Below, piece by piece: positions 60 to 34,570 of a stretch of 52,039 nucleotides of DNA. The stretch is from positions 1 through 52,039 of the IMG/VR virus record IMGVR_UViG_3300050821_011378, one strand, 5' to 3'. The stretch comes from a virus. A program made the translations under genes and the position numbers. The notes below the pieces were generated by a model. It was not told the origin of the DNA. It saw nothing but the letters and a program-made list of their open reading frames with translations, and made no database searches. The stretch's first letter is position 1, and the number at the start of each line of letters is the position of its first letter.

Positions 60-140
<81 letters not shown>

Positions 141-2210: not shown

Positions 2211-5200
2211 CTATTCGGCCAAGGCTTTCTGCTTGTCGTCCCTGCGACCGATTTTGATTTGGGACCAGTCTGTGGCGCGCCTGGACGCCTTGATGTCGGC
2301 CGGAGAAAAAACCTCAGTGCCTCTCGCTGGCATGAACTGCTGAGCCGCCTTGTAGACGCCCTCATGAGTAGTCTCGCTGCCTTTGGCTTTGTCCCAGAGC
2401 CAATGATGCATAACGTGCAGGTAGGCTTCTTCGGGGATTGCCTTGGCCTCCGGCGACTTCTCGCGAACCTCCATCAGCCGTTTGACAATTCTGTCCTTCA
2501 GGATGTCCAGCGAACCGGGTTCGTGCTTAATAGCATCCACCAGAGCCTTCTTCGCTGGCGCGACATGCTTGATGTTGCCTTTGCCGGTGAGCCAGTAATT
2601 AATCTCGACTGCGTCAAGCGTCAGGTCGCCACCGAAACCCAGGATGTGCGAAATGAACGGCGCTTTAGCTGGACCAATGCCGCGCAGCTGCTGGACTGCT
2701 TCCATCAGCTTGGGACCGTCGCCCTTCGCAGCGTTGATGTTATTCAGCACTTCGCCAAGGTTCGCCATTGAAGCTTCGCCCTCCTTCATGGAGAGCCTGC
2801 GCACGCGGCCGGTCGCTGTCGGGTTACCCTGCTCATCTCTGAGCACAGCGCGGCTGCTCGGGTCAGTCTCATAGATAGGTCTCTCAGTAGACTCGCCCGG
2901 CTTCATCAGCATGCCAGAGTAAAAAATGCGGTCGTCTCCAAACGCTTTACGGACCTTTGCTAAACCTTCCCAATCCTTAGCGTCGTATTTTCCAGCGTCG
3001 ACGTTGTCGAGCGCCTTCTTACCCTCCGCAGTGCCCAACCACCAAGCTGCCGCTTCCTCCGGCCGGATTTTATCGCCGCTCAGGAACGACTTGTCAGGAT
3101 TAAAGCCGGGCACGCTCTCCTGCAGCTTTGAGAGCCTGATGGAGTCGCTGCCCTGGCTGGCAACCGTGATTGCATACGCCTTGGCGAGGTCCCGCGCAGA
3201 AACTTTCCCTTCCTTGAGCACCTCGCGCCGGTCGCCCAGGAAATTGACAACGCCGTTAAGGTATTTTGGATAGGCCCCTAACGCCTTTACGGCATCATCT
3301 GCGGTAATCATGCGAGCCCTGCGGACCTTTTGCCGGAGAGAATCTGCGAGAGAAACCTCCTCGGCCTTCGCTCCTTTGGCGGGCATGAACTGGAGGGACA
3401 GCTGCTCCATCTTGTCGAGCTTGGGCATCACCGTCATCAGCGGTTGCGCGCCCACCTGCCCAGGGGCTTGATAAATGCGTTGGTCGCTCGTCAGGTTCGA
3501 GATGTGGTGCTCGTCGTTCAGGAACCCAATCGCTTTGCCCTCGACCGTCCACGGGTATGAAAAATGGAAGTCAGTCTTCTCTGGCGTCTGGTCCTTCGGA
3601 ATTTCAATCAGGCCGACGATTGAACCGGTGGGTAAATCGTGCAGGCCTGGGTCACGGATGTCTCTCGCGATGCTCGGCACGTCAATGCCCAGCTTCTGAG
3701 CGTCCTTCCAGTTAATCGGAAGCGTGCGCTGGTTTGCTCTCTCCATCAAATGCTTTGCCGCCTCGAAGTTGAACTCCTTATTGCGAGTGGCGTCACCAAA
3801 CTGGCCCAGCGTTTTGATTTTTTGGAAGAGTGCGAGATTGTCATCAGTGACGAGCTTCGACTTGGTTTCGCCCAGGCGAGAAAAAATCTCCTTGATGTGA
3901 GCATCGGCCTTTCTCTTGCTGACAGCGCCAGCATCGACGGCAGCCTTGAGCGCTTGGTAGTAGGCTACAAGTCCGGTGGGAGAATTCATGTGGTTGTTCG
4001 CCCCGAGCACGGTCAATGCCGCAATGGCTGAGTCGCCATCACCGGCCACTTGGCGCACGCGAGTCAGGAAGCGCCTCGCAGCGCCCTGGTCAGCGAAGGC
4101 CCAGCCGCCATCCTTGTAGATGTGCATGAAGCCACGGCCGCCCTGCCCTGCAATCTCCATCGGCTCCTTAGCTCCTACGGGGCCGACTTCCATTTGACCA
4201 ACACCCATGCGGTCAGTCGTGAGCACGAAGAGCGGCTTGCCGATGTAGTCCTTCAGGTCCACGCCCTTGGCGGGCATGAACTGCGTCATTACCCGCTCGT
4301 CCAGGCGCAGCTTGCCTTCAGCGTCGGTCGTGCCGATTAGGTCGACCGGCGTCTTCTGATACATCATGACGATTTTGCGCGTGCCGTTCTCTGCGCTCAT
4401 CAGCACGCCATCGAACCCAGCCTTCTGAATCGCCTTGTCGTTCGCTTTCGCAGGCCAGTCTTTGAAGAAGCCCAGCGGGTCCTCGCCGGTCGCATCATAA
4501 ATTCGTTTACCATCGATGGTCGCCGAGTAGGCAGCTCGGTTGCCGAACTTCTTGACATCGTTGCCGACCTCAGAGCCCTCGACGTAGAAAAAGGAACGCT
4601 TCGGGTTGGGCTCCCAAGAGGCTCCGGTGCTGTTCAATTTCATGAACGCGGGGTCGACCTCTTTCAGACCTTCTCCTGCGCCGGAGAAGTGAACTGCTTT
4701 AATTGGCTCGCCTACGCTGTGTGCTTGGTTCGCTTTGCTGATTGCTCTCCTGCGAACCGGCACCTCACCAGCGGGCTTCTGCGGTTTCACCTCATACTTG
4801 CTCCAATCGGTATCCTTCCATGGGTCCTCTTTGTCCAGGTCGGGCATGCCACTATTCGCTGGCATGAACTGTTGCGCAGTGTCACCGGCTTTGCGCCTCA
4901 TCAGGCGCTCAACCGCTGAGAGCTGACCCCGGAGGCTTTCGACCCGAGACAAGTAGTTGCTCCGGTCAAATTCCGTCGACCCGGTATCCGCTGTCGCCTC
5001 TGCTCGGTCGATTTGCTCTTGGAGCCAAGCGTGTTTTTTAAGCAGCTCTTCCACAGTCCGAGGCTGCTCCAACTCACCTTGTAGCTCCTGGGCGTAACCG
5101 TCCGCGTGACTCGCCTCCAACAGGTCTCCACGATAAACCTGGGTGTCTTGTTGCCCGCTCTTTCGCCGAAGCTCGACTTGTTTGGAAAGCTTATCAGCGA

Positions 5201-8200
5201 GTCGAAACTTGCGAGAGACTGCGGAACGAATCTCCTCCGGGTTGATTTTATCAGTCTCGTCCTTTGCGAAGCCCATCTCCTTCTGCTCGGCGGGCATGAA
5301 CTGTTGCGCTTCACCCTGCTGCTTAGCAAACCGCTGGCTCTCCAGGCTGGCGTCCTCTTCAGGCCCAGCGTGGTATTGGCCCAGTTCCAGGGCTCTATCG
5401 AAAGCCTGCTCGCGGTTTAAAAACTCGCCGCTGTTGGTAGTGAAGCCCTCGGTCAAATTCGGGTGAGAGTTCCAAGCATCGAGCGCAATTTCCTGTGGGT
5501 AGTTTCCCATCTCGTCGGGCTTGAGGCCCTTCTTGTCAGCGAGCGCTTCGAGCGTCGCAAAGGCGTGCATCGAGCCTTCGTAAACTTTGCCGGTCTCCTC
5601 GTCGCGGATAGCTGCGGTCTTAACCGCACGCGGCTCTTTGCTCGGCATGAAGGCAATGCCGCTGAGTTCGTCCTGCGCCTGGGAGAGTCGAGCGTGCTCC
5701 GGGATTTTACTCTTCACTGGCTCGCCTGTGCCGCCGGTCGGAATCTCTTCACCTTTGCGAGCGTCCCAGATTGCTTTCTGGTTGTATCGCTGTCCCAACG
5801 CCTCGGCGAGTTTGCGGTCGGCCGTGCTGACGACGACGTCGACATAGGTCTTACCATCGTTGCGCCAAGTGCCGAGTGAGTTGCCCGGCTGCTTCAGCAA
5901 ATCGCTGTTGGCCTTTAAAAAGTCAGCCAGCTGCTCCTTTGTCGGGTCACCGTGGACAATCTTGGTGCGCTCCGGGTAAATCGAAACCACGTAGGAGTCC
6001 TCGTCGGCTCCGGCAAACTTGCCGGTGCGTGGGTCGAAAGTTGCACCACCATTTTCGAGCGTGGAGTGGACAATCCTACGAGCGTCTTCGTCACTCAGCC
6101 CCATGCGGGGGTTGTCTCGGGCCGAAGCGGGGGCTTCACCACGGCCCGGCATAAACGCGACCATTTTGACGTTATCGCCAAACTCATGTCGGATTGCGTT
6201 GTAGACTCCTGTGGGGATGTCATCTACGGTGGGCTCATGGTCAAGGCGGTCTCTTACCCTGGCCGGGAAGGCTACTGACACCTGATTTTTCTCGAAGTCG
6301 TATCGCCCTTTGAAGGTCTTGTCTGCAACTTCGTGACTGAAGGCCATGCCGTGAGTTTTGTCGGCTCCTACTGCCTCAATGCTGCGGGAATACTGGTTAT
6401 AAATCCAAGTGCGGTCATGCTTATTTACCTCGCCTTCCTCGCCATCCCGCACACCATGGCCGATTGCGAAATACTTCTCTGCCTCCTCATACGCAGCTTC
6501 CTGCTCAGAGTCGGTCATGTCCGAGAAAGCTTTGCGTTTTGGTTTCACCTCAGGCCCAGTGTCGAAGAGCCTCTCTTGGCGCTCCTCCCGCTTGGGCATG
6601 AACCCTGCGGCCGTGACGTCGGTAGCAGTGGGCGAAAGTTTGATGTCCGGCCGAGGCGTAGCTGATTTAATCTCCTTCGCGTTGACCCACTCGTGCGCCT
6701 CAGTCAGCTTCGAGGTGTCGACGCCTGCCTCCTGCATTTCAACGCGCAGCGGGTTGTAGTCACTAATGTTGACGTTCGGGTAATCCTTGTAAGTTTTCTT
6801 GGGCTTGACCTCGATGCCAGCCCGGTCGTTCATGCTGGCGATTTGCTTCGCACGCACTTGGATTGGCACCGTGCCTTTATTCGCTCGCGCAGTCTCCGGT
6901 GGGTCTTCACCCATCAGGAGGTTCAAAAAATTCGTCTTCTCTTTGCTGAGCTTTACTGGCGTGTAGTCGGGGTTCTCGTCGGGAATGAAGCCCTGAGGGT
7001 TAGCGGGCCGGTTGAGCTTCTCGCCGTCGCCCCGGTAACCGTTGTCCTGGTTCTCGGTGTATGCTTTCAGGTCAGCAGCCAGCTCGGCCGAGTTCTTGTA
7101 GGGGATTAAAGGCGCAGCCTTGGGGTCGTTCGCGAGCGTCTCATAATTGGAGAGCACCTTGTCGCCAGACCAAAACTGCAGCTGCACGTCGCCGTTCTTC
7201 AGCGTGCGGGCATCCAGAGGAATTGACGCAAGCTTGCTGGCCAAGTCGCGCAGCTCAGGATTATTCCTGGCAGCCTCGACGTCTGCTCGACGCGGGGCTC
7301 TGTCCATTGAACCGGCTTCGTTCTTCGCCGCGTTGTAGACAACGTCGTGCGGAGTGCGCAAATTCGAGAGCAACGTCTGCACTGCTTGCTTCTGTTCCGG
7401 CGCGAGAGTTTTGCTCGCTTCGACAGCAGCTTGAACTTCCCGCACACGAGCATTAGCCGGAGCACGAGACTCCCCTTGAAATTTCTTGTAATCGGCTTCA
7501 CCTTTGCCACGCAGGTTAGGCACTGAGGCGTTCGCCTCTGCTGCAGTGACTGTCGGAGCTGCTGGCGCGGCAGGAGTTTCTTCCTGAGGAGGAACACTCG
7601 CCGTGGCTTCTTCTGGCAGAGTAAAAGCTGGCTCTGCTTGCGGCCGGTTACCAAACATCGCCTTGTCTTGAACCTGCAGTTCGGCCGGAGGAACTGTCGC
7701 TAACCCAAGAGGCGCTCCAGGCTCTGCGCCACCGGGCTTAACGGTCGGCTCAAGCAACTCGGCCGGAGGTGCGGTGGCAAGTCCCGGAGCAGCGGGCTCC
7801 GCAGCCTGAGCAGTTGGTTGCTCAGGCGCAGCCATCGAGTCCAGCGCTTCAGGAGTAATCGAGCCTTGGAGACCGTTAAGCGCCTTGTTGACTTCCGGGT
7901 CACTCAGCCACCGGTCTATAACCTTCTGTCCGACGTGAGCAGCGAGCGGTGACTGCTTAGTCCCAAAGCGAGTAACATTGTTTGCAGCGCCGGGCTCTGC
8001 TACGCCACCTTTGTAAAGTCCGAGGCGTTCCGCAGTCCTCGCCAGCACACCAATGGCGGTTTTCTTCAGACCAGGGGGAACATTTTTGAAATCTGCTGTG
8101 TCGAGCAGCCCGCTGAAAACTTCGGCCCGAAGCTCGGCTTGAAGACTCTCGGGAGTCATCGCTGCGCGCTGCGCGTCTGTTAGGCCACCCTGACTGAGGT

Positions 8201-9989
8201 AATGCTGGTTGAACTGGTCCTGGAACCCTGCAGTGGTTTTGTCAATCGCTGCACGCTCCTCCGGTGTCGCGATGAATTTGTCGATGAAGTGTCCTGGCTC
8301 ATGGGTAAGAGATTTTACACTGTCGCCGTTCAGCACCCACACCAGCGTTGGCTGACCATCAATCTTTACCGGGAATGCACCCTCTTTGCCTTCAAGGCCA
8401 ATCGTCTTTGCAAAGTCAGGAGAAACTAGGTAGGCCTCCTGGCCATTGGCGGCCATTGCTGCACGCGCCCGGTTGAGCAGGTTTGCGTCGTAGGGGTCAG
8501 TCTGCTTCAGAGTGTCGAGAGACTGCTGGTGCTCCGCTTCGAGCGTAGGGTTTGTGTCGAGTTTGAAATCTGAAACAGGGGACAAGCTGCCGGGCTCGAA
8601 GTGCGCTGCGACCACATGCTGGGCTGCTCGAAAAGTTGCCTGCTTGCTCGCATTCCAGCCCTCACCAGCCAAAGCACCAGCGGCACCGAAGCCCATCGTG
8701 GAACCGAGGATGTCTGCGCGCTCCTGGGCAGTGTCGCCGCCCTGCGAGAGCACTGCACCAATCGGCGCTGCATGAAGAGCGCCTTTGCCAGCGGTCGACG
8801 CAGCGTCGAGTAGCGGCCCATAAAAATTCTCGTTGCCGATTGCACCGGCAACTTTGCTTACTGCTTTCGCAGCATTCTTCACTACTGCGGGAGCCGCGAG
8901 CGTCGCAGCGACTGCAGGAGCGGACTTAGAAAGCGCTCCCACGCCCATACCCAGCACGCCTGTCTTCAGCATGTCCACCTTCTCGGCAGCCTTCGCCGTC
9001 GAGTCCGCGACGGTCTTAACTACAGAAGTAGTTTTTGCAATGAAAGCGTCAGCGGCTTGGCGAGTGACCGACTTGGCGACCACTTGTCCAGCCTTGTTCA
9101 AAACATTGAACCCACCAGCGACCTTGGTTGCCGACAAGCCGGAGAGAGACCCGGCCCACATCATTGGGTCTTCAATGTTGGAAAGGCTCTGGACCAGCTC
9201 GGGGTCTATCTCGATGCCCTTCTTCGCCACCGAAGCGGCATCCGTCCCCATGAATTCCGCAACAGGTCCCTCGCCCTGGGCGATTTTATTTTGCTGGTCA
9301 ACGCGGGCAGCCGCGTCAAAAAATCGAGTCTTCGGGTCTTTCGCAGCCTCCGGGGGCTTGGCTCCGATTAGCTTGGAGAACCAAGCCTCAGCTTTGGTTT
9401 GGGCCTCATTGAGGCTGTCACCAATGCCAGTGACAAGGTTTGCTGTCTTGGTGGTCCCGTGCTCTAACCCGGAGACGAGTGCCGCCCTAGCCGCGTCGGC
9501 TTGATACTGTTCATTAGCGTCCGAAGCATCGGGTTTGAAAACCTTTGAGCCTGCCAGCAGCTCTTGGCGAGTCGGGAGTGCCAGAGAGACTTCGCCCGCG
9601 AGCTTGCCGACGTCTCCGGCCAGTGAAGGAATGCTGGTAATTGTGTTCCAAACCGCACCGGCCACTTGGCCCAGGGACATCGACTTGTTGTGCTGGATGT
9701 CGTGCACCTGGACGAGCTTGTCGACCTGCTCAGGCGACAAGACCTTGTTTGGGTTTTTGAGCCCTGCGTAGAGGGCCGGACCATTGAAAGAGTTGTCGTC
9801 CGCGAGCTGCTGGGCAGTCTTGGAGTCGATGTTAGAGAGGGCGTCGTCAGTCTGCTTAGCCTCTCCTGGGAGGACAAACGGCTGGGACTGAGCGTTTAAA
9901 CGCGCATCCTGGGGAAGCTGAAAGTCAGAGTCAGGTGCCGGGGCGGTCGCCCTAGCCTCGGCCGGAAGTTCAAATGCAGTGTTACCCAT
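2211..9989 (-). CDS. Giant polyvalent protein, 2,592 aa, with metallopeptidase, ART-like and HhH modules
   Basis: A single uninterrupted reading frame encodes a modular protein of the polyvalent-protein type (Iyer and colleagues' term for multi-enzyme phage proteins delivered with DNA). The N-terminus carries a repeated FxLPxxA motif (FELPAEA, FQLPQDA, FVLPGEA, and FTLPEEA near residue 788). A zincin signature HEPGH lies at residues 563-567. Nine F(M/I)P motifs at residues 1001, 1130, 1279, 1447, 1564, 1708, 1904, 2201 and 2552 separate globular segments. Residues about 1763-1865 (KAVHFSG ... GFDGVL) resemble polyvalent ADP-ribosyltransferase domains. Residues about 2430-2465 (LRGIGPAKAPF, then LTLDAVEINYW) resemble a HhH-GPD fold with the catalytic-Asp position kept. 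It sits with ejection-protein genes and starts at a late element. It is probably packaged and injected; individual activities are inferred. Confidence 0.8.
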   Translation of the reverse strand: MGNTAFELPAEARATAPAPDSDFQLPQDARLNAQSQPFVLPGEAKQTDDALSNIDSKTAQQLADDNSFNGPALYAGLKNPNKVLSPEQVDKLVQVHDIQHNKSMSLGQVAGAVWNTITSIPSLAGDVGKLAGEVSLALPTRQELLAGSKVFKPDASDANEQYQADAARAALVSGLEHGTTKTANLVTGIGDSLNEAQTKAEAWFSKLIGAKPPEAAKDPKTRFFDAAARVDQQNKIAQGEGPVAEFMGTDAASVAKKGIEIDPELVQSLSNIEDPMMWAGSLSGLSATKVAGGFNVLNKAGQVVAKSVTRQAADAFIAKTTSVVKTVADSTAKAAEKVDMLKTGVLGMGVGALSKSAPAVAATLAAPAVVKNAAKAVSKVAGAIGNENFYGPLLDAASTAGKGALHAAPIGAVLSQGGDTAQERADILGSTMGFGAAGALAGEGWNASKQATFRAAQHVVAAHFEPGSLSPVSDFKLDTNPTLEAEHQQSLDTLKQTDPYDANLLNRARAAMAANGQEAYLVSPDFAKTIGLEGKEGAFPVKIDGQPTLVWVLNGDSVKSLTHEPGHFIDKFIATPEERAAIDKTTAGFQDQFNQHYLSQGGLTDAQRAAMTPESLQAELRAEVFSGLLDTADFKNVPPGLKKTAIGVLARTAERLGLYKGGVAEPGAANNVTRFGTKQSPLAAHVGQKVIDRWLSDPEVNKALNGLQGSITPEALDSMAAPEQPTAQAAEPAAPGLATAPPAELLEPTVKPGGAEPGAPLGLATVPPAELQVQDKAMFGNRPQAEPAFTLPEEATASVPPQEETPAAPAAPTVTAAEANASVPNLRGKGEADYKKFQGESRAPANARVREVQAAVEASKTLAPEQKQAVQTLLSNLRTPHDVVYNAAKNEAGSMDRAPRRADVEAARNNPELRDLASKLASIPLDARTLKNGDVQLQFWSGDKVLSNYETLANDPKAAPLIPYKNSAELAADLKAYTENQDNGYRGDGEKLNRPANPQGFIPDENPDYTPVKLSKEKTNFLNLLMGEDPPETARANKGTVPIQVRAKQIASMNDRAGIEVKPKKTYKDYPNVNISDYNPLRVEMQEAGVDTSKLTEAHEWVNAKEIKSATPRPDIKLSPTATDVTAAGFMPKREERQERLFDTGPEVKPKRKAFSDMTDSEQEAAYEEAEKYFAIGHGVRDGEEGEVNKHDRTWIYNQYSRSIEAVGADKTHGMAFSHEVADKTFKGRYDFEKNQVSVAFPARVRDRLDHEPTVDDIPTGVYNAIRHEFGDNVKMVAFMPGRGEAPASARDNPRMGLSDEDARRIVHSTLENGGATFDPRTGKFAGADEDSYVVSIYPERTKIVHGDPTKEQLADFLKANSDLLKQPGNSLGTWRNDGKTYVDVVVSTADRKLAEALGQRYNQKAIWDARKGEEIPTGGTGEPVKSKIPEHARLSQAQDELSGIAFMPSKEPRAVKTAAIRDEETGKVYEGSMHAFATLEALADKKGLKPDEMGNYPQEIALDAWNSHPNLTEGFTTNSGEFLNREQAFDRALELGQYHAGPEEDASLESQRFAKQQGEAQQFMPAEQKEMGFAKDETDKINPEEIRSAVSRKFRLADKLSKQVELRRKSGQQDTQVYRGDLLEASHADGYAQELQGELEQPRTVEELLKKHAWLQEQIDRAEATADTGSTEFDRSNYLSRVESLRGQLSAVERLMRRKAGDTAQQFMPANSGMPDLDKEDPWKDTDWSKYEVKPQKPAGEVPVRRRAISKANQAHSVGEPIKAVHFSGAGEGLKEVDPAFMKLNSTGASWEPNPKRSFFYVEGSEVGNDVKKFGNRAAYSATIDGKRIYDATGEDPLGFFKDWPAKANDKAIQKAGFDGVLMSAENGTRKIVMMYQKTPVDLIGTTDAEGKLRLDERVMTQFMPAKGVDLKDYIGKPLFVLTTDRMGVGQMEVGPVGAKEPMEIAGQGGRGFMHIYKDGGWAFADQGAARRFLTRVRQVAGDGDSAIAALTVLGANNHMNSPTGLVAYYQALKAAVDAGAVSKRKADAHIKEIFSRLGETKSKLVTDDNLALFQKIKTLGQFGDATRNKEFNFEAAKHLMERANQRTLPINWKDAQKLGIDVPSIARDIRDPGLHDLPTGSIVGLIEIPKDQTPEKTDFHFSYPWTVEGKAIGFLNDEHHISNLTSDQRIYQAPGQVGAQPLMTVMPKLDKMEQLSLQFMPAKGAKAEEVSLADSLRQKVRRARMITADDAVKALGAYPKYLNGVVNFLGDRREVLKEGKVSARDLAKAYAITVASQGSDSIRLSKLQESVPGFNPDKSFLSGDKIRPEEAAAWWLGTAEGKKALDNVDAGKYDAKDWEGLAKVRKAFGDDRIFYSGMLMKPGESTERPIYETDPSSRAVLRDEQGNPTATGRVRRLSMKEGEASMANLGEVLNNINAAKGDGPKLMEAVQQLRGIGPAKAPFISHILGFGGDLTLDAVEINYWLTGKGNIKHVAPAKKALVDAIKHEPGSLDILKDRIVKRLMEVREKSPEAKAIPEEAYLHVMHHWLWDKAKGSETTHEGVYKAAQQFMPARGTEVFSPADIKASRRATDWSQIKIGRRDDKQKALAE
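9892..9903. repeat. Palindrome GCGTTTAAACGC, one of seven GTTTAAAC sites
   Basis: The eight-base palindrome GTTTAAAC occurs at 9894, 13291, 17935, 26371, 35744, 41565 and 49213. Three sites extend to the full 12-base palindrome GCGTTTAAACGC. Sites occur in both coding and junction positions; the one at 26371 contains the portal stop codon. Fewer than one site would be expected by chance at this GC content. Confidence 0.5.
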
Positions 9990-28486: not shown

Positions 28487-28745
28487 TTTGGGTCCAGAAA
28501 AAGACCCTGCGCCAGAAGCCCGCCGGGCACTTTTCAGTGGCTAGGCGCGCCTTTGGGTGGATAAAGCAGGTGCAGAGCCTGCACTGGCCGCAGGAAGCGT
28601 CATAACAGCTGCCGGAGCGAGCGACGCATTCGTCTATCCGCGCTCGGTAGTGGTCCTGGTCGACGAACAGAGGTCGCCGCGTAATGGCGGCCCACAGGAA
28701 CCGCCCAAGGGCACCGGCAAACTCTCTGGGGCTCGGGATAATCAT
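28482..28745 (-). CDS. Cysteine-rich protein, 87 aa
   Basis: A basic N-terminal helix is followed by a cluster of cysteines (CVARSGSCYDASCGQCRLC, then TC...KC), likely binding one or two zinc ions. It overlaps the HAD-like gene by 4 nt. Similar Cys-rich phage proteins are common near terminase genes. Function unknown. Confidence 0.65.
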   Translation of the reverse strand: MIIPSPREFAGALGRFLWAAITRRPLFVDQDHYRARIDECVARSGSCYDASCGQCRLCTCFIHPKARLATEKCPAGFWRRVFFWTQS

Positions 28746-29128
28746 TGTCTGTTCCAGGGGATGAAGTCCTCTATGTAGCTGACGTGCGGGAAAATTCCCC
28801 GAAAGTGGTAGCCACGGTCGTCGATGTAGAGCACCGCACCGGGCTTGTGCGTCGGGAATTCCAAGTGGTCCAGCACCTCCGGCTTGAGCCCGTGCTTGTT
28901 GAACCAGTCGAACATTGCCTTGACGCCTTCCATCTCGTGCGAGCGCGCCGAAAAAATTGCGACCCGATAACCGGCGCGGAGGTAGTCCTCAATCGCCTGG
29001 AACGCGCCCTCAACCGGCGGGTCCTCAATGGTCTCGGGATTTGTCCAGGGTGACTTGTAAGAGTGCACCACTCCGTCGAAGTCCAGACAGATGCGTTTCG
29101 GGAATTTAACGGGGGCTTGTTCGTTCAT
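28742..29128 (-). CDS. HAD-superfamily phosphatase-like protein, 128 aa
   Basis: Motif I is RICLDFDGVVHSY (DxD), followed by VAIFSARSHE (motif II Ser) and a C-terminal LYIDDRGYHF (motif IV Asp pair), the core of small HAD hydrolases such as polynucleotide phosphatases. The start chosen is the internal MNEQAPVKFP because it overlaps the upstream gene by 4 nt. Possible roles are end-processing of nucleic acid or removal of a phosphate from a nucleotide. Confidence 0.75.
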   Translation of the reverse strand: MNEQAPVKFPKRICLDFDGVVHSYKSPWTNPETIEDPPVEGAFQAIEDYLRAGYRVAIFSARSHEMEGVKAMFDWFNKHGLKPEVLDHLEFPTHKPGAVLYIDDRGYHFRGIFPHVSYIEDFIPWNRQ

Positions 29129-29703
29129 GGTTGCGGCTTTCTCCAACAGGTGTTCGGCGCTTCCTCCAAAAGCTTGTGCTCCTTGGTCCAAACCTCGGCC
29201 GACAAATCCTCGCCGCCTAGACGGCAGGCCTTGCCGAGCATGCCTTCGTGCAGCGCCTCGGGCTTGACTGCAACTGTAAGAATTTCGAGTATGTTTTTCT
29301 TACAAGGCGGGCAGCTGTCTCCGCTGTTCCAGTCGACGCAAAACTTGCAGCCCTTGCATATCCTGGCACGAGCGTCAGCCTCCGGCCGGTCAACAAAGCG
29401 ATAGGCCTTGCTCATCCGACCATCGAGAAGAGAAGCAGCCCGAACCGCGACTCTGCCCTGAAGGACTTTGTCGGGTTCGGGGCGCTTTAACTCTCCCACC
29501 TCCTGGCAGATTCCCGGTGAACGGGTGCAAAGCTGTGCGTGCACGTCACGCTGTGCAGCGGTTGCGTCAAGACCGGCCCGGCGACGGTATCCCCAGACTT
29601 TATTCACCAGGGAGGTCACGTCGCTCGCCTCGAACGGAGTGCCATCCGTTTCGGTGAAACGGTAACCGCCGGGAGGATAAAAGCCGTCCTTGAGCGCTTG
29701 CAT
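29125..29703 (-). CDS. Zinc-binding phage protein, 192 aa
   Basis: The N-terminal part begins GGYRFTETDGTPFEASDVTSLVNKVWGYRRRAG (a helical motif common in small phage proteins). A central region has CKGCKFCVDWNSGDSCPPCKK, six cysteines that probably coordinate zinc. It overlaps both neighbours by a few bases, indicating a tightly coupled cassette. No specific family was recognised. Confidence 0.65.
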   Translation of the reverse strand: MQALKDGFYPPGGYRFTETDGTPFEASDVTSLVNKVWGYRRRAGLDATAAQRDVHAQLCTRSPGICQEVGELKRPEPDKVLQGRVAVRAASLLDGRMSKAYRFVDRPEADARARICKGCKFCVDWNSGDSCPPCKKNILEILTVAVKPEALHEGMLGKACRLGGEDLSAEVWTKEHKLLEEAPNTCWRKPQP

Positions 29704-32940: not shown

Positions 32941-33615
32941 ATGCCAATTCCCTTTGAGCCGACACGTTCCTACGTTTATCGAGCCGCGCGTTATGAGCTA
33001 CTGCCGCAGATAGCGCAGATTGCGCGCAGTTACGGAGACGAGCCATTTCTTCTTCGAGAGATTTCCAAGCGCGTGCTTGCCGAGACCTATACAGCCGAAC
33101 AACTGGAGATTCGCGTCAAGAAGGCGAAGTCCGACAAGTTGGATACCATAAGCCATATTTTCGGATTCTATATTCCGTTCCTCGCAGAGAATCTGCAGGT
33201 GTTCGAGAACCTTGGCGGAGGGAAGTTTAAGAACATTTCTATCGAGGACGAGCTTGCCGAGGCGGACGCCGTCGCCACCGACATTGACTCGCACGATTCG
33301 GGCATCATCTATGCCTATTCCTTCCCATCAATCCAACGGGACGACAGCAAATACCCCATCAAGGTCGGATTGACCACAACAGGCGACAGTCAAGCGAGGG
33401 TTAATCAGCAGTGCAAGCAGACCTGTTGCTTCGAGTATCCCATCGTGCTCAGGACGTGGGACGTTCAGCGGGTCGCCGCCGTCGAGGACGCAATCCATTC
33501 GACACTTGAAGCGCGTGGTTCCAAGCGCGATTCGCCCGGAACCGAATGGTTCGACACGACGCTTGAGGAGCTCGACAGCATCATCAAGTTCGTTCAGGGC
33601 GCGCCACCCGTATGA
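32941..33615 (+). CDS. GIY-YIG-type nuclease-like protein, 224 aa
   Basis: The C-terminal half has GIIYAYSFPS and YPIKVGLTTT, then RVNQQCKQTCCFEYPIVLRTW with a final EDAIHSTLEARGSKRDSPGTEWF. This is the pattern of T5orf172/MUG113-type GIY-YIG domains (tyrosines, Arg, Glu in order; EWF near the end). The N-terminal half is helical and unassigned. It lies on the plus strand in a minus-strand block, as a homing endonuclease or other mobile nuclease gene would. Catalysis is inferred from motif only. Confidence 0.7.
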   Translation: MPIPFEPTRSYVYRAARYELLPQIAQIARSYGDEPFLLREISKRVLAETYTAEQLEIRVKKAKSDKLDTISHIFGFYIPFLAENLQVFENLGGGKFKNISIEDELAEADAVATDIDSHDSGIIYAYSFPSIQRDDSKYPIKVGLTTTGDSQARVNQQCKQTCCFEYPIVLRTWDVQRVAAVEDAIHSTLEARGSKRDSPGTEWFDTTLEELDSIIKFVQGAPPV

Positions 33616-33708: not shown

Positions 33709-33822
33709 CTACTTGAAGAACCTGTCGAGGAGTGCAGACACAAAAGCGGCAAGCAGCAATGAAAGCCCAGCAACGTTAAGCACTGCCAGGACGACCGCCT
33801 GCTGGTGGAAATACCAGCCCAT
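33709..33822 (-). CDS. Small membrane protein, 37 aa
   Basis: One hydrophobic helix (VVLAVLNVAGLSLLLAAFV) ends in DRFFK. The start overlaps the stop of the preceding 48-aa gene (TGATG), so the two are translationally coupled. Together they form the end of the short unit that also carries a tRNA-like RNA. Confidence 0.55.
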   Translation of the reverse strand: MGWYFHQQAVVLAVLNVAGLSLLLAAFVSALLDRFFK

Positions 33823-33968
33823 CAGTAGTCGTAGTTGCCGTTGCTCTTGCAGACGATTGGCTTCTTCCAGGCACGCACAACTGCAATTATGGCGCGAGAA
33901 ATGATTTCAGCCTTCACCCAGAAAATGACTAGGCCGAAGACGAACGCGAACAGTATTTCGTTTGGCAT
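33822..33968 (-). CDS. Small membrane protein, 48 aa
   Basis: The N-terminal hydrophobic helix (EILFAFVFGLVIFWV) is followed by a basic segment and a C-terminal SNGNYDY. It begins 5 nt after the CCA end of the tRNA-like RNA. Membrane insertion is predicted; partner or role unknown. Confidence 0.55.
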   Translation of the reverse strand: MPNEILFAFVFGLVIFWVKAEIISRAIIAVVRAWKKPIVCKSNGNYDY

Positions 33969-33972
33969 AAAT

Positions 33973-34112
33973 TGGCGGCCGTGAATGGAGTCGAACCACT
34001 ACCGGCGCGCATTCGGATTTCACCAAACTGTTCCCGTCCACCGGAACCGGCACTCCGGTGGGTTGTGGTCTATACCCTGCGCGCCTGAACTATCCCATTA
34101 TTCGACACGGCC
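33973..34112 (-). ncRNA. tRNA-like RNA with a remodelled anticodon arm, 140 nt
   Basis: The acceptor stem is perfect (GGCCGTG/CACGGCC) with discriminator G and an encoded CCA. The D arm is GAAT/GTTC around AATGGGATA. The T arm is AGTGG/CCATT around the canonical loop TTCGACT. The anticodon arm is replaced: an 8-bp helix GGCGCGCA/TGCGCGCC encloses 66 nt that can form further hairpins (for example CCACCGGA/TCCGGTGG). No standard anticodon loop with T33 is present, so it is not an ordinary tRNA. Decoy, primer or aminoacylation-mimic roles are possible. A pseudogene with an insertion is the plain alternative. Confidence 0.65.
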
Positions 34113-34240: not shown

Positions 34241-34570
34241 TCATTTCTGCTCCGCTGCCTGTCGCTGTGCGTTCGCCGCCTCATTCAGCATGCTTAGAGC
34301 AAGGCTGACGTGGTGGGCGGCCAGAAAAACGTAAGGGTTCGGCGAGTTCGCATTCATGAACTCCAGCCGGTGCCCACAGGCAACCAGGGCTTCCTCGGTC
34401 GAGCAGCCGTCGTTCACAGTGACGACCTTGGGCTGCGCCAAGGGCTGGCCGCTGCGCGACTTGATGGAGCCGACTTCGAGTTTCTGCTCGTGGAACTGGA
34501 TAGTCTGACCCACCAGTGGGCTCTCAACATTTTGCAAAACGTATTTGTGTCCGGGGGTCAGTATTTTCAT
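34241..34570 (-). CDS. Acb2/Tad1-like domain protein, 109 aa
   Basis: The N-terminus (PGHKYVLQNVES, then TIQFHEQK) and the middle (VTVNDGCSTEEALVACGHRL) match the plan of small phage proteins with an Acb2/Tad1-type hairpin domain, whose usual form is NDGTTNEEVLxxLIxRLxxLN. Some family members bind cyclic nucleotides and block CBASS or Thoeris signalling. The C-terminal helix (HHVSLALSMLNEAANAQRQ) fits the second hairpin helix. Direct evidence for sponge activity is absent. It lies between two RNA elements downstream of a late promoter. Confidence 0.6.
   Translation of the reverse strand: MKILTPGHKYVLQNVESPLVGQTIQFHEQKLEVGSIKSRSGQPLAQPKVVTVNDGCSTEEALVACGHRLEFMNANSPNPYVFLAAHHVSLALSMLNEAANAQRQAAEQK

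Follow-up and report, generated by a model that had tools for sequence, protein, structure and literature searches.

The tRNA-like RNA gene and its parts

The window analyzed here is the complete IMG/VR record IMGVR_UViG_3300050821_011378 (52,039 bases), and its minus strand carries a 140-nt tRNA-like RNA gene. The parts of this gene and its neighbors are the following.

33973..34112, minus strand: tRNA-like RNA gene, 140 nt including the encoded CCA (sequence and ARAGORN call with introns allowed)
34106..34112, minus strand: acceptor stem, 5' strand GGCCGTG, pairing with 33977-33983 (7/7 Watson-Crick; pair probability 0.82-1.0)
34105 and 34086, minus strand: U8 before the D arm (U8-C9 linker) and A26 after it
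34087..34103, minus strand: D arm GAAT-AATGGGATA-GTTC, with G18G19 and one G-U pair (sequence)
34078..34085, minus strand: anticodon-arm stem, 5' strand GGCGCGCA, 8 bp versus the usual 5, pairing with 34004-34011 (shuffle frequency 0.0005)
34012..34077, minus strand: 66-nt rod in place of the anticodon loop, with short helices GGGU/AUCC and ACCA/UGGU (MFE structure)
34038..34061, minus strand: apical hairpin CCACCGGA-N8-TCCGGTGG (pair probability about 0.95)
34004..34011, minus strand: anticodon-arm stem, 3' strand TGCGCGCC (sequence and pairing)
34001..34003, minus strand: variable region GGT, 3 nt (GCCGGT, 6 nt, in the 5-bp register; sequence)
33984..34000, minus strand: T arm AGTGG-TTCGACT-CCATT (sequence)
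33973..33983, minus strand: acceptor 3' strand CACGGCC, G73 (33976) and encoded CCA (33975-33973; sequence)
33822..33968, minus strand: ORF48, 48 aa, with a hydrophobic N-terminal half (MPNEILFAFVFGLVIFWVK...; translation)
34241..34570, minus strand: ORF109, upstream of the RNA gene (profile searches)
32941..33615, plus strand (opposite to the RNA): T5orf172 protein (Pfam PF10544, E = 6e-14), which we take to belong to the GIY-YIG superfamily

The element lengths sum to 140 nt, and inspection finds the bases of the L-shape in place (U8-A14, A15-U48, G18G19 with U55C56, the TTCGA T-loop). The perfect acceptor stem, encoded CCA, TTCGACT T loop and GG-containing D loop of the original prediction were all found on the minus strand, and the 8-bp anticodon stem, predicted to enclose 66 nt without a normal loop, was confirmed by the sequence and by its shuffle frequency. 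The upper half of the molecule is that of a canonical tRNA (7-bp acceptor, D arm with GG, TTCRANY T arm, CCA).

The tRNA-like RNA gene at 34112-33973 is real and above chance, because the call made there by ARAGORN with introns allowed is the only one in the window (and survives a threshold raised to 108%), because 100 dinucleotide-shuffled windows (5.2 Mb) gave no call at all with inserts of up to 200 nt in the same mode, and because only 0.05% of shuffled D-arm-to-T-arm regions gave an 8-bp anticodon stem. With inserts of up to 3000 nt allowed, the same 100 shuffles gave 11 calls. ARAGORN in its normal mode (no introns) found no tRNA in the window, and the Rfam tRNA model (RF00005) did not match the window RNA even at E<=5. 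In the thermodynamic ensemble both the acceptor stem and the anticodon stem are firm (pair probability 0.8-1.0), while the D and T arms are weak (about 0.1-0.2) and alternatives compete with them; the full cloverleaf, when enforced, lies only 0.8 kcal/mol above the minimum, and the overall folding z-score, -1.8, is modest. Just before the RNA, CCACCAATTTTTT (34126-34113, minus strand) echoes CGCCAATTTATG (33977-33966, minus strand), located just after it; this echo is possibly a leftover of an upstream tRNA-like 3' end.

Neighboring genes, host and related phages

The ATG of ORF48 sits 4 nt after the CCA of the RNA, and the two may be located on one transcript. The profile search with ORF48 gave only a sub-threshold match to an Rz-like spanin (E = 0.24). 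ORF109, taken at the outset for an Acb2/Tad1-like protein, did not bear out this identity: it has no match in Pfam or NCBIfam and none to a PHROG of named function at E<=10, its single PHROG match being an unnamed one (E = 0.29). No sigma-70-like promoter was found near the RNA gene; sigma-70 may not be the promoter type of the host.

At positions 60-98 (plus strand) of the window a tRNA-Phe(GAA) gene is represented by its 5' half; the sequence departs from the gene at the anticodon loop, and this is a probable prophage attachment junction. This half gene at the start of the contig points to a bacterium of the Verrucomicrobiota as the probable host; the exact 39-mer of this half is present in many Verrucomicrobiota, in some Collinsella/Atopobium and in two alphaproteobacterial genomes. 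Another Verrucomicrobia tRNA-Phe 5' half, near 5915 of the locus L292, is followed by AAAAGGCCACTTTTC, which resembles the junction of the window, ATAAGGAGACTTTTC, and probably marks another integrated element.

The terminase and portal proteins of the window, searched alone, had no matches in the phage and viral collections, so these proteins are too distant from deposited phages to match. Two relatives were reached via a search of the host class and a two-sequence alignment. The first is a syntenic prophage in contig C96 of genome G384 (about 53.9-124.8 kb, loci L376-L379; terminase identity 58%), whose left end is the 5' half of a tRNA with the anticodon CAT, an intact tRNA-Met(CAT) being located about 71 kb further on, at the other end. 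The second is the viral contig L383 (terminase identity 54%), found by the two-sequence alignment. Judging by these ends, these are temperate-looking phages seated in tRNA anticodon loops.

The RNA, the T5orf172 gene, ORF109 and ORF48 are absent from both relatives, while the flanking genes are shared. Since the RNA, the GIY-YIG gene and ORF109 are missing from the two related phages, the RNA belongs to an accessory cassette located at about 32.9-34.6 kb. A search for homologues in 313 genomes of Limisphaerales (the order name was read from locus titles) gave only short chance-level matches, and an exact search of IMG/VR for the 3' half of the RNA found none.

Elsewhere in the window, a 2592-aa protein (2211-9989, minus strand) is weakly similar to a phage protein annotated as 'type I restriction enzyme' and is possibly a DarB-like antirestriction protein, and a HAD-family protein (28742-29191, minus strand) has weak matches to polynucleotide kinase and to RNA-repair HAD domains.

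Long anticodon arms in other viral contigs

IMG/VR was scanned with a pattern consisting of a D arm, 65-95 nt, a T arm and CCA (with a looser tRNA pattern most matches were normal tRNAs preceded by a D-arm pattern that arose by chance). Among the 119 matches listed, 49 had an acceptor with 6-7 pairs; a 78-96 nt version of the pattern gave 92 stretches in all, and 18 distinct long-insert cloverleafs were counted over all collected loci; the true numbers are higher, as the scans were limited to the D-arm and T-arm sequences that are most common.

The window RNA falls into a class with an extended anticodon arm, in which a stem of at least 6 bp runs into a long hairpin and no loop is restored. 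The original prediction had proposed a search for the same architecture in other phages; it is carried by L207, where a continuous extended anticodon stem reaches 10 bp (shuffle frequency 0.001), and by L038/L107 (one virus, 99.97% identical), where 6 bp are followed by a long hairpin (shuffle frequency 0.016), and thus is not unique to the window RNA. No genes common to the window phage and these contigs were found. The extended-arm architecture therefore recurs, though rarely and with arms unrelated in sequence.

A family of phage tRNAs with a conserved insert

A restored anticodon arm was defined as a 5-bp stem with U33 and a purine at 37; 20 of 45 distinct sequences, the window RNA included, regain a perfect or near-perfect arm when the insert is removed. 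In 17 of these 20 the junction follows position 27-29, and 12 of the 17 (counted by hand) contain a hairpin and, after it, CAGCAA or a near match. A second scan, which required the CAGCAA motif and CG at 27-28 (the first required neither), enlarged the family to approximately two dozen distinct sequences, KVP40 among them. The members are L154, L157, L170, L195 (KVP40), L199, L203, L211, L227, L236, L239 and most of L242-L265. Their insert is 39-57 nt long, mostly follows position 28, and is built in the order TAxAA, hairpin, CAGCAA, T-rich end; taking it out gives back perfect anticodon arms. The tRNA halves covary across it: among 25 sequences (including L138, with another insert type, and some that share one insert), pair 29:41 occurs in four Watson-Crick types, and 30:40 and 31:39 in three each.

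The KVP40 member (179301-179416, 116 nt) is annotated as tRNA-Pseudo-3, and its spliced form would have the arm CGTGC/GCACG with the anticodon GUU; Pseudo-4 and Pseudo-5 are insert-bearing as well. Vibrio phage 6E35.1a, which is more distant, has the acceptor GACCGAT/ATCGGTC where KVP40 Pseudo-3 has AGTCGGG/CCCGACT; the stem still pairs, and the insert with its hairpin sits at an unchanged position. Since the acceptor changes are compensatory and both insert and hairpin are kept, RNAs of the Pseudo-3 type do not behave as pseudogenes.

A second insert type (L133, L175, L182) is 53-64 nt long, ends with TTACT or ACTTC and occupies the same tRNA position; L138 and L163 perhaps belong to it too, in which case its length is 50-64 nt and its ends are mostly TTACT, ACTTC or TTAT. 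Viral tRNAs in L010/L210, L181 and L215 carry an insert inside the anticodon loop, after position 33-37. In L054, L066, L073 and L096 we observed phage tRNA-Ser(UGA)-like sequences with a long D stem resembling that of selenocysteine tRNA, which gave no ARAGORN call in the fragments tested.

We found no description of the insert-bearing phage tRNA family in the literature, although our search was partial and an earlier description is possible. According to a 2014 review, all phage introns observed to date reside in protein-coding genes, despite the many phage tRNAs (PMC3984707), while a survey of T4-like phages lists tRNA pseudogenes called by tRNAscan-SE (PMC1524935). The family is potentially more novel than the window RNA itself.

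The anticodon arm: rebuilt or interrupted

The window RNA could be an interrupted decoding tRNA-Arg(CCG), with an anticodon-arm insert of about 61 nt, either removed by splicing or tolerated; it would then resemble the inserted phage tRNAs, many of which recover a canonical arm. ARAGORN with introns allowed indeed labels it so (61-nt insert, loop CTCCGAA), and at relaxed spacing (2-nt spacer, 6-nt variable loop) the arm GCGCA-ATCCGAA-TGCGC, with the anticodon CCG, is regained. However, this spacing is off-canonical, and the relaxed restoration is mostly a by-product of the 8-bp stem, which supplies its pairs. A canonical 5-bp anticodon stem with a 7-nt U33 loop at standard spacing is absent, and the frequency at which removal of an insert strictly restores such an arm in shuffles, 0.23, is at the level of chance. 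The best split of the insert follows position 30, again with off-canonical spacing; removing an insert at position 27-29 does not restore a perfect arm, and the 66-nt insert has neither the CAGCAA motif of the conserved family nor its junction at position 28. We consider the interrupted tRNA unlikely. As strict restoration is at chance and the relaxed one comes mostly from the 8-bp stem, we conclude with modest confidence that the anticodon arm has been rebuilt rather than simply interrupted, and the RNA probably cannot decode.

Several known elements were rejected as identities of the RNA or its insert. A group I intron core needs about 200 nt or more, while the insert has 66 nt and no Rfam intron match. 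The archaeal bulge-helix-bulge intron has two 3-nt bulges 4 bp apart, to which the 3-nt bulge, 4 bp and 4x3 internal loop of the window bear a mere resemblance, and it requires a host with splicing endonuclease, which a bacterium is not. There is no Rfam or ARAGORN match to tmRNA and no Rfam match to bacterial Y RNA (YrlA). The likeness to the tRNA-Tyr of T5-like phages covers no more than the T arm with a few adjoining bases and does not extend to the whole RNA.

Possible functions of the window RNA

We regard it as quite possible, if somewhat short of probable, that an accessory phage gene encodes here a tRNA mimic which is functional but does not decode. Cleavage by RNase P and by the enzymes of tRNA 3' processing would release a stable RNA of about 140 nt from the leftward transcript; this RNA would act via its tRNA-like upper half, through stability or by occupying an enzyme that reads the elbow or the CCA end, while the long anticodon arm would serve as a scaffold or effector part. 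In favor of this are the intact acceptor, D and T arms, the encoded CCA, the single ARAGORN call against none with such short inserts in the shuffles, the continuous 8-bp stem, the lack of a canonical arm in the usual register and the occurrence of the architecture in L038/L107 and L207; besides, the Rfam tRNA model matches insert-bearing tRNAs of decoding type at about 42-56 bits and matches neither the window RNA nor L038. Against it are the modest z-score, the weak D and T arms, the missing sigma-70-like promoter and the lack of a homologue in the two related phages and the 313 Limisphaerales genomes.

As to the specific role, the original prediction saw in the RNA a decoy for tRNA-cutting defence nucleases. 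For anticodon nucleases such a decoy is disfavored, because the RNA is without an anticodon loop: PrrC reads the anticodon stem-loop, a 17-nt stem-loop being sufficient (PMC3014915), and a target of this type is missing here. A decoy for enzymes acting at the elbow or the CCA end is possible, a tail-cutting defence being known in Cas12a3 (PMC12851939); still, a sequestering role in particular, by which the RNA would occupy an elbow- or CCA-reading enzyme, seems to us quite doubtful. Aminoacylation, also envisaged initially, looks unlikely for an RNA with no anticodon, judging from general knowledge of identity elements: the only synthetase-relevant features are G73 and G1-C72, and there are no anticodon determinants.

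Rather unlikely, in our opinion, is a tRNA gene put out of function by a recent disruption, within a variable cassette that carries an endonuclease gene. In its favor, the RNA is accessory (both relatives lack it, along with ORF109 and the GIY-YIG gene) and its insert has no homologue; however, the acceptor, D and T arms are undamaged, and a continuous 8-bp stem is not what one would expect when a 5-bp stem with its 7-nt loop receives an insertion. A tRNA-like fold serving as processing punctuation, excised from a polycistronic leftward transcript to free ORF48, agrees with the position of the RNA between ORF109 and ORF48, the closeness of the ATG to the CCA and the absence of a visible Shine-Dalgarno sequence, but leaves the long anticodon arm unexplained and relies on a putative gene, and we hold it to be very unlikely.

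A tRNA mimic working outside decoding would have known precedents in the T4 species 1 RNA and in tRNA-Other of Bacillus cereus. The stable RNAs of T4 known as species 1 and 2 (rnaC, 139 nt, and rnaD, 119 nt) are similar in length to the window RNA; like it, rnaC carries a perfect T arm close to the 3' end, and the two T4 RNAs lie beside phage tRNAs and the GIY-YIG gene segB, the window RNA also being close to a GIY-YIG gene. Unlike it, they have no clean 7-bp acceptor with an encoded CCA, and their fold is different. The B. cereus tRNA-Other is a non-decoding tRNA-like RNA of a genomic island, with a role outside translation (PMC3399842), and thus resembles the window RNA in function proposed and in location on mobile DNA; in contrast to it, tRNA-Other has a Trp anticodon, resides on a chromosomal island and is no phage RNA with a rod-like arm. 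In tmRNA, too, a tRNA-like end domain is combined with another structure replacing the anticodon arm, but the window RNA has a D stem and is shorter. Closest in general build are the phage-borne tRNA-Pseudo-3, -4 and -5 of KVP40, with full acceptor, D and T arms and about 40-50 extra nt in the anticodon arm; unlike the window RNA, they match the Rfam tRNA model, and in Pseudo-3 removal of the insert restores a decoding anticodon arm in the normal register.

Taken more broadly, phage genomes may hold unrecognized tRNA genes whose anticodon arm is interrupted or rebuilt, the 39-57 nt insert of one family (hairpin and CAGCAA, mostly after position 28) being under selection, which would imply an unknown, probably protein-dependent splicing or decoding with an extra arm, and the window RNA being an extreme relative without a decoding loop; we put this forward tentatively, as a possibility that is on balance unlikely. 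If the window RNA is made and is stable, it would be a naturally occurring tRNA scaffold whose decoding arm a phage has exchanged for a rod, and could help to find out what role tRNA-like ends play in phages once decoding is excluded. The wider insert pattern matters more than the window RNA alone: the inserted phage tRNAs, some of which are filed as pseudogenes, make splicing or extra-arm decoding in infected bacteria directly testable.
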